From the NCBI GenBank assembly GCA_944324915.1, contig CALUYD010000011.1:1-50357 (forward strand): 50,357 nt of DNA. Reading direction: 5' to 3'. This document shows, piece by piece, positions 33,638 to 33,880 of this stretch (position 1 is its first letter; each line of letters opens with the position of its first letter). Under the pieces are notes generated by a model, which saw nothing but the letters and a program-made list of their open reading frames with translations, was not told the DNA's origin and did not search any database. This stretch comes from Candidatus Gastranaerophilales bacterium (lineage in GTDB: Bacteria > Cyanobacteriota > Vampirovibrionia > Gastranaerophilales > Gastranaerophilaceae). Made by a program: the position numbers and the translations under genes.

Positions 33638-33818
33638 AAATAAGTTTGTGGGCCTGTGGTCCAGAGGCAAATGAGCTTTAGTTTGCAGGGCAAACTTAGC
33701 GAATGAAGCCGAAGGCATAGGTGTGTGAAGTCCGTGACGGTGAAGCGTTGAGCTTCAGCGGACAGGACGGAAGCCTTACCGCAATGTTTGAAAATTAAAT
33801 AAGTTTGTGGGCCTGTGG
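33638..33818 (+). repeat. 22-bp direct repeats of the tRNA 5' end flanking a dispersed repeat
   Basis: 22 bases at 33638-33659 recur exactly at 33797-33818, 159 bp apart. The second copy contains the first 10 bases of the tRNA gene (GGGCCTGTGG). The DNA between them carries the same dispersed repeat as the S8-L6 gap (24-base match at 33670-33693; 14-base match at 33742-33755). The arrangement suggests insertion of the repeat at the tRNA with duplication of the target, or a tandem duplication with later loss. Confidence 0.8.
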
Positions 33819-33880
33819 CGCAGCGGTAGCGCAGGGGACTCATAATCCCTTGGTCGTGGGTTCGAATCCCTCCGGGCCCA
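33809..33880 (+). tRNA. tRNA with CAU anticodon, Ile2-like or Met
   Basis: A full cloverleaf can be drawn: acceptor GGGCCTG/CGGGCCC, D stem GCGC/GCGC, anticodon stem GGGGA/TCCCT with loop CTCATAA (anticodon CAT at 33841-33843), variable TGGTC, and T arm with loop TTCGAAT. The T stem has one T-T mismatch. G1-C72 rules out the usual initiator. The anticodon arm and TTGGTCG variable region resemble tRNA-Ile2, which reads AUA after lysidine modification; elongator Met is the alternative. CCA is not encoded. Confidence 0.88.

Follow-up and report, generated by a model that had tools for sequence, protein, structure and literature searches.

Short gene-less insertions at tRNA gene ends in the Gastranaerophilaceae, with a duplicated tRNA-Met 5' end as an example

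Large mobile DNA classically lands in transfer RNA genes, which it reaches by way of integrases. Short hairpin units are known from other settings, as the intergenic modules of the REP/RAYT system and as the arrays formed by integron attC cassettes. In tRNA islands of the Islander type a tRNA or tmRNA gene that is intact and a displaced piece of its end, equally oriented, flank an insert of at least 2 kb that contains an integrase gene (PMC4383910). Bacterial MITEs such as YPAL and RU-2 are less than 200 bp long, gene-less and dispersed (PMC2229807; PMC10969869), and for YPAL target duplications of 3-26 bp are described, at targets that span or adjoin dyad symmetry (PMC2229807). Repeats inserted in RNA genes are mentioned in this literature for Rickettsia elements, and the main text of either paper uses the word tRNA 0 times (PMC2229807; PMC10969869). 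A limited search of open-licence papers found no title or abstract opening that describes insertions at tRNA ends of the kind reported below.

Here we show that a duplicated tRNA 5' end in a Gastranaerophilales genome is a real feature and belongs to a class of short tRNA-end insertions in its family. We put at roughly two in three the probability that the duplication is a target duplication made by a short, gene-less, non-autonomous, MITE-like element that targets tRNA ends and is widespread in the family. The elements may be called MITE-like by their behaviour: they share small size, lack of genes and dispersal with YPAL, RU-2 and the other MITEs covered by these two papers, but differ in sitting at tRNA gene ends, both 5' and 3', in an outside-in orientation, in leaving the tRNA whole and in carrying, in many inserts, the reverse complement of the target (PMC2229807; PMC10969869). 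The description of YPAL mentions no counterpart to this target preference and orientation rule (PMC2229807).

The window, that is the whole stretch of 50,357 nucleotides that was analysed, is contig C11 of a genome (G000) of 1.8 Mb in 36 contigs. The 23-bp sequence TAAATAAGTTTGTGGGCCTGTGG is present in it twice on the forward strand, at 33637-33659 and 33796-33818, as exact copies with a spacing of 159; the preliminary description had reported an exact 22-bp duplication around a repeat segment, which is the same repeat minus its first base, so that the duplication stands and its length is revised. The last 10 nt of the outer, first copy correspond to the 5' end of a tRNA-Met(CAT), and the inner, second copy extends into this tRNA and holds its first 10 nt (33809-33818), in agreement with the preliminary description. 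The tRNA is intact and was placed at 33808-33881 by ARAGORN and at 33809-33880 by Rfam (RF00005, 68.9 bits), the sole Rfam match above cut-off over 33000-34500; a terminator-like hairpin follows on the same strand at 33890-33909. Between the copies lies a gene-less insert of 136 bp (33660-33795, +), within which a dispersed repeat, family A, occupies 33661-33780 (+) as judged from BLAST matches elsewhere in the genome. A putative boxA-like motif, TGAAAATTAAATA, stands between insert and tRNA at 33789-33801 (+) and overlaps the second copy. Upstream of the first copy, where a promoter had been placed, a promoter-like site was recovered, TTGAAA-16-TAGAAT at 33572-33599 (+); alone it is weak evidence, with two such sites in the region against 1.2 expected from shuffles, and the stretch around it (33523-33599) is kept, at 77.5%, upstream of the orthologous tRNA in a relative, G011.

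Intact tDNA and displaced fragment flank this insert in the order and orientation that are correct for an integrase-type island, and the preliminary description had read the locus as an integration that regenerates the 5' end of the tRNA, with a polarity uncommon for integrases. The remark on polarity agrees with the Islander data, in which a 5' tDNA fragment marks 159 islands and a 3' fragment 3760 (PMC4383910). The insertion-like layout, the duplicated 5' end, the promoter outside and the whole tRNA are likewise supported, but integration of the integrase type is not: the insert has no integrase gene inside and measures 136 bp against the Islander minimum of 2 kb, and in the class as a whole the duplication reaches into non-tRNA sequence and both tRNA ends are used. 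The insert instead has the properties of a MITE-like element, being under 200 bp, gene-less, represented by dispersed copies and bounded by a target-site duplication; no inverted repeat of at least 12 bp was listed at its ends.

Copied tRNA ends are frequent in this genome and its relatives. We looked for exact copies of at least 10 bp of a tRNA end within 350 bp of it, using the flank of another amino acid's tRNA as control, and found them at 17 of the 41 tRNA genes of the window's own genome, nine at 5' ends and eight at 3' ends. Counting once a near-identical pair of tRNA-His loci on contigs C25 and C30 (L246 and L247), whose 5' unit lies close to contig ends, gives 16 of 40; tRNAs near contig ends are retained in the count despite partly missing flank. 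Copied ends were also present at 14 of 38 tRNA genes in G020, 7 of 36 in G001 and 1 of 12 in the partly sampled G013, loci from related genomes that are not independent of one another. The swapped-flank control gave 1-2%: an exact match to the first 26 nt of the tRNA lay upstream in 40 of 4102 swapped pairs, and the corresponding 3' figure was 79 of 4102. In G040, which belongs to another family and has no E0 matches (the module described below), the 34 of its 42 tRNAs that were covered had no 5' copies and four 3' copies, some of them real duplications. Units also occur in tandem, as two of 105 bp at tRNA-Lys(ttt) and two of 98 bp at tRNA-Ile(gat).

Two further loci were noticed. Downstream of the tmRNA gene (tag ATATLYAQLAGL; contig C5 of the window's genome) two partial copies of the tmRNA 3' end were seen by eye with repeats between them (L004, 909-1293 and 1320-1640), and these copies resemble the units at tRNA 3' ends. 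On the reverse strand of L156, from 6441, a tRNA-Leu(gag) is seemingly split after the anticodon by a repeat insert that adjoins an E0 unit.

Many of the inserts open, directly after the outer tRNA-end copy, with the module E0, which consists of ACTCTGCCGA, a variable stem-loop and GAGAGG. The exact E0 pattern is found in 38 of 58 genomes, the window's own included, and the reversed pattern in none. In a phylum-wide sample of 386 genomes, for which family counts were made by hand, E0 is present in 165 genomes, among them 164 of the 170 from the window's family and one of three from the order's other families; it is absent from all 10 genomes in the rest of the class and from the 203 others, and the reversed pattern gave seven single matches, all outside the family. 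The number of E0 matches differs widely between genomes, from 84 in G207 to none in G068 and G117. The titles of E0-sharing records, among the matches listed, mostly read Candidatus Gastranaerophilales, Melainabacteria or uncultured bacterium. All six E0 of the window's own genome lie within 200 bp of a tRNA, and the one on contig C6 is placed past the tRNA-Ile gene, within a partial copy of it. Among 30 E0 loci listed, 24 have an adjacent tRNA, four run off the contig and two are without a tRNA; in a set of 219 distinct E0 listed, partly chosen by a GTGGC prefix, a tRNA follows on the right within 300 bp in 158 cases and many of the other 61 run off the end of the locus. In G032, where E0 occurs 44 times and often inside other dispersed repeats, ARAGORN placed a tRNA no more than 320 bp away, in the stretch covered, for only 11 of the 44. 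The scan of other records with the GTGGC prefix skews the tRNA types listed toward 5' insertions at Met, Leu, Lys and Pro.

The units share one geometry. Read on the E0 strand, the order is outer flank, tRNA-end copy, E0, remainder of the insert, flank, tRNA end and remaining tRNA, and E0 next to a tRNA points outside-in, lying on the tRNA strand at 5' insertions and on the opposite strand at 3' insertions. In the loci listed, insertion mostly falls 11-12 nt from the end of the gene, in the 5' strand of the D-stem or the 3' strand of the T-stem, and sometimes about 18 nt from it, in the D loop, with a few exceptions; insert size is mostly about 80-150 bp. One core is found at different tRNAs: in the window's own genome two E0 that differ by 2 bases stand 3' of tRNA-Phe in antisense and 5' of tRNA-Leu(caa) in sense. 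That E0 is antisense at 3' ends and sense at 5' ends argues for insertion at the DNA level.

E0 was seen in other surroundings as well. At L100, L107, L175, L199 and L206 it stands in a recurrent larger repeat, preceded by GAGTGGC, and no tRNA was found nearby. A scan of viral sequences with a slightly longer pattern returned 23 stretches, of which 22 looked chance-like by eye and one, on viral contig L313, real: there an E0 hairpin with a repeat-like tail (3448-3494, minus strand) lies between baseplate-type genes, four proteins of the contig having been compared with PHROGs. Its presence on a viral contig suggests that the modules may travel.

The duplication extends beyond the tRNA. At the 73 loci without a second E0 close on the left (four of 77 were skipped, their flank being missing), the two copies have at least 3 contiguous bases in common outside the tRNA in 52, at least 8 in 39 and none in 9, against 1.8% (at least 3 bases) and 0.06% (at least 8) of 3240 control pairs. 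Ten of the 39 loci are identical across all 60 bases compared and are thus probably remains of tandem units; with flank bases common in most loci, what is duplicated is mostly the locus itself, beyond the tRNA core. Some sites are filled in one genome and empty in a congener. Lys(ttt) carries units in G000 and G001 and is empty in G020 and G013: the outer-copy flank of G000 matches the two empty sites with 70 and 67 identities per 90 bases, the inner-copy flank with 50 and 51, and shuffles give 55-56, so that here the element was inserted and the outer copy is native. At Leu(tag), filled in G001 and empty in G000, the figures are 64 and 58 identities (shuffles 55.7), and for both flanks of Ile(gat) the alignment with the empty site was no better than shuffles. 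G020 has a unit at the 5' site of Arg(tct), which is empty in G000 and G001, and Pro(ggg) is filled in G000 and empty in G001.

The preliminary description had proposed to look for an empty site at the window's tRNA-Met locus; no empty orthologue of it was found in the relatives compared. The genes to the left of this tRNA are shared with G011 (73% over 708 bp), as is the promoter stretch, and in G011 an E0-like unit with its own copied tRNA end and a remnant takes the place of repeat A, so that both species were hit at this locus, with contents that differ.

These data bear on the possibility that the units are relics of tyrosine-integrase islands or cassettes (from phages, ICEs or integron-like elements) of which, after recombination at tRNA att sites, only the ends remain. 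Islands are recognised by an intact tRNA accompanied by a correctly ordered displaced fragment (PMC4383910), and at the 3' end of Arg(tct) in G000 the inner copy and the outer, displaced copy are each followed by a terminator, the two terminators being different. The tmRNA gene, a known island target, is also affected, PF00589 genes are present in all 58 genomes searched, and at L075 and L089 an apparent tRNA 3'-end copy precedes E0 with no tRNA within 1.5 kb, perhaps at the ends of larger insertions or rearrangements. We nevertheless hold this origin to be unlikely. Besides the small, integrase-free inserts, a duplication that can reach at least 17 bases of target-specific non-tRNA flank and an insertion point within the D- or T-stem strand or the D loop, at both ends, speak against it; and G032, with its 44 E0, has only 2 PF00589 matches. 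Compared with the islands described for Islander (PMC4383910), the elements lack an integrase, fall far short of 2 kb, duplicate sequence past the tRNA and use the two ends about equally (nine and eight in the window's own genome).

PF00589 matches number four in the window's genome, and six window proteins were compared with Pfam; one of the four, a tyrosine recombinase gene in the window at 7783-8691 (+) with Phage_integrase and SAM-like domains, perhaps encodes a Xer protein. Several other E0 carriers share with G032 a count of only 2 PF00589 matches each; the arrays of short hairpin units are reminiscent of attC cassettes, but no cassette gene was seen. REP/RAYT modules are alike in being short hairpins, but Y1 transposase, which we considered as the mobiliser, was rejected, the window's own genome having no match; it is present in 10 of 58 genomes and in 4 of the 38 with E0. 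By eye, neither Y1 nor PF00589 counts track the number of E0, and no link between the elements and a transposase or integrase was found.

Repeat A, in contrast to what the preliminary description implied, need not have made the repeat pair. It is indeed dispersed: a search of the own genome with 33630-33810 returned eight places including itself, the other seven with E values from 1.7e-13 to 1.9e-6, and the segment 33660-33795 is therefore a dispersed repeat. Three of the seven lie just 3' of structural RNA genes, namely tRNA-Val (L003), tmRNA (L004) and tRNA-Leu (L005), and no tRNA was found near the remaining ones, among which L007 overlaps L006. The window insert is without E0, and repeat A fills the slot between its two copies of the tRNA end. 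In G001 and G020 repeat A directly follows GTGG at tRNA-Leu(tag), as it does in the window, and in G001 it is succeeded by a tail known from E0 units, so that A seems to replace E0 within a unit. With a different, E0-like unit at the same tRNA in G011, the dispersed repeat of the window is probably a later or alternative occupant of the slot. The motif TTACCGC in the window insert was considered as a reverse complement of the D-arm and dropped, other copies of repeat A ending in TTACC or GTACC. Family A and related repeats are also seen between the ribosomal protein S8 and L6 genes of the window (22744-23060, the end being approximate; +), where the repeats are in tandem and one has 33 bp at 91% to the insert.

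A separate observation concerns G020, which belongs to another species. Window positions 31900-33780 are 100% identical to it over 1881 bp (L010), ending inside the repeat; past 33780 G020 has an extra tandem copy of repeat A, and it differs from the window after the tRNA. Recent transfer, recombination or a binning error would each account for this identity. As a general explanation, an artefact of assembly or binning at repeats is scarcely credible: the titles of the records suggest MAGs and contig ends are frequent at such places, but the same build appears in many records that by their titles come from different studies and assemblers, and unique sequence is often present on both sides.

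Many inserts contain an imperfect reverse complement of their target, which by eye is perfect over 15 nt at Lys(ttt) and 14 of 15 at Asn. For 63 of the 125 E0 units listed, the match to the unit's own tRNA end (30 nt, reversed) exceeds that to 99% of the ends of other amino acids' tRNAs; against a pooled 99th percentile the numbers are 27 of 100 units listed at 5' ends and 12 of 25 at 3' ends. Predicted pairing between end copy and insert, for the 109 units kept (16 of the 125 were dropped), averaged 13.15 kcal/mol against 11.04 for swapped partners at 5' ends (Wilcoxon 5e-8, n = 88 units listed) and 11.2 against 9.79 at 3' ends (p = 0.07, n = 21 units listed), p-values that are too small because the sequences are related. 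By target, among the units listed, pairing is clear for Met 5', weak for Lys 5' and absent for Pro.

A complement spanning the insertion point is what replication-based rearrangement would leave, by template switching or tandem-inversion duplication at the palindromes of tRNA genes, with the E modules as filler and no dedicated enzyme; the 63 units that match their own end and the common tandem copies would suit it too. It appears an improbable account, since near-identical E0 cores stand at different tRNAs and in both orientations, about half of the units listed have no complement above controls, and pairing, significant on average, reaches the top 5% individually in only 19 of 88 (5') and 4 of 21 (3') units listed.

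The same structures could be taken for functional RNA leaders, cis-acting tRNA-like structures that control transcription or maturation of the tRNA and are kept by selection. When units of a sample were folded singly, a three-way junction was frequent, its outer stem containing the tRNA-end copy, and the boxA-like motif lies in the last 45 bases before the tRNA in 20 of 24 genes with a 5' copy but in 9 of 85 without one (G000, G001 and G020; tRNAs with at least 60 bases upstream). That 3' units also carry the target complement means that selection at the RNA level alone is insufficient; E0 at 3' ends is antisense and beyond the terminator yet has the same build, and congeners are without units at the same tRNAs, which makes a leader function very unlikely as the explanation. 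The boxA-like motif may or may not be borne by the element, as it is present in some empty-site leaders as well, for example that of Leu(tag) in G000. For a comparison of boxA with rRNA leaders, 16S was not found in G000, G032 or G033 by a search that also missed it in 5 of 14 control genomes.

Under the reading that we favour, insertion of a tRNA-end-targeting MITE-like element, the element would enter at a point about 10-18 bp into the tRNA gene, counted from either end, in the outside-in orientation, and the duplication would consist of the tRNA end plus a variable stretch of adjacent flank, the inner copy keeping the tRNA whole. At 5' ends the outer promoter would then transcribe through the element into the tRNA, and the long 5' leader would be removed, plausibly by RNase P; at 3' ends a terminator often follows the inner copy and the element would lie beyond it. 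Movement would be brought about by an enzyme acting in trans, and, with E0 on opposite transcript strands at the two ends, recognition is most likely of the tRNA-gene end, an inverted repeat, at the level of DNA. Only tentatively would we go further and propose an insertion mechanism, as yet undescribed, that reads the tRNA-gene end as a folded structure. Such a mechanism could take either acceptor-strand end from the outside in, act 10-18 nt inside, duplicate the end and write an inverted copy of the target into the insert; E0, repeat A and other modules would share this route and would have spread by it, without a dedicated integrase, through the family and to the tmRNA gene.

Here tiny gene-less elements occupy 17 of 41 tRNA genes in one genome and recur across the family at both gene ends under a single orientation rule. 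If confirmed, they would represent a route to tRNA genes without an evident integrase, and the filled and empty sites of related genomes would form a natural set for working out its mechanism. They would also call for caution with software that infers islands or tRNA pseudogenes from fragments of tRNA.
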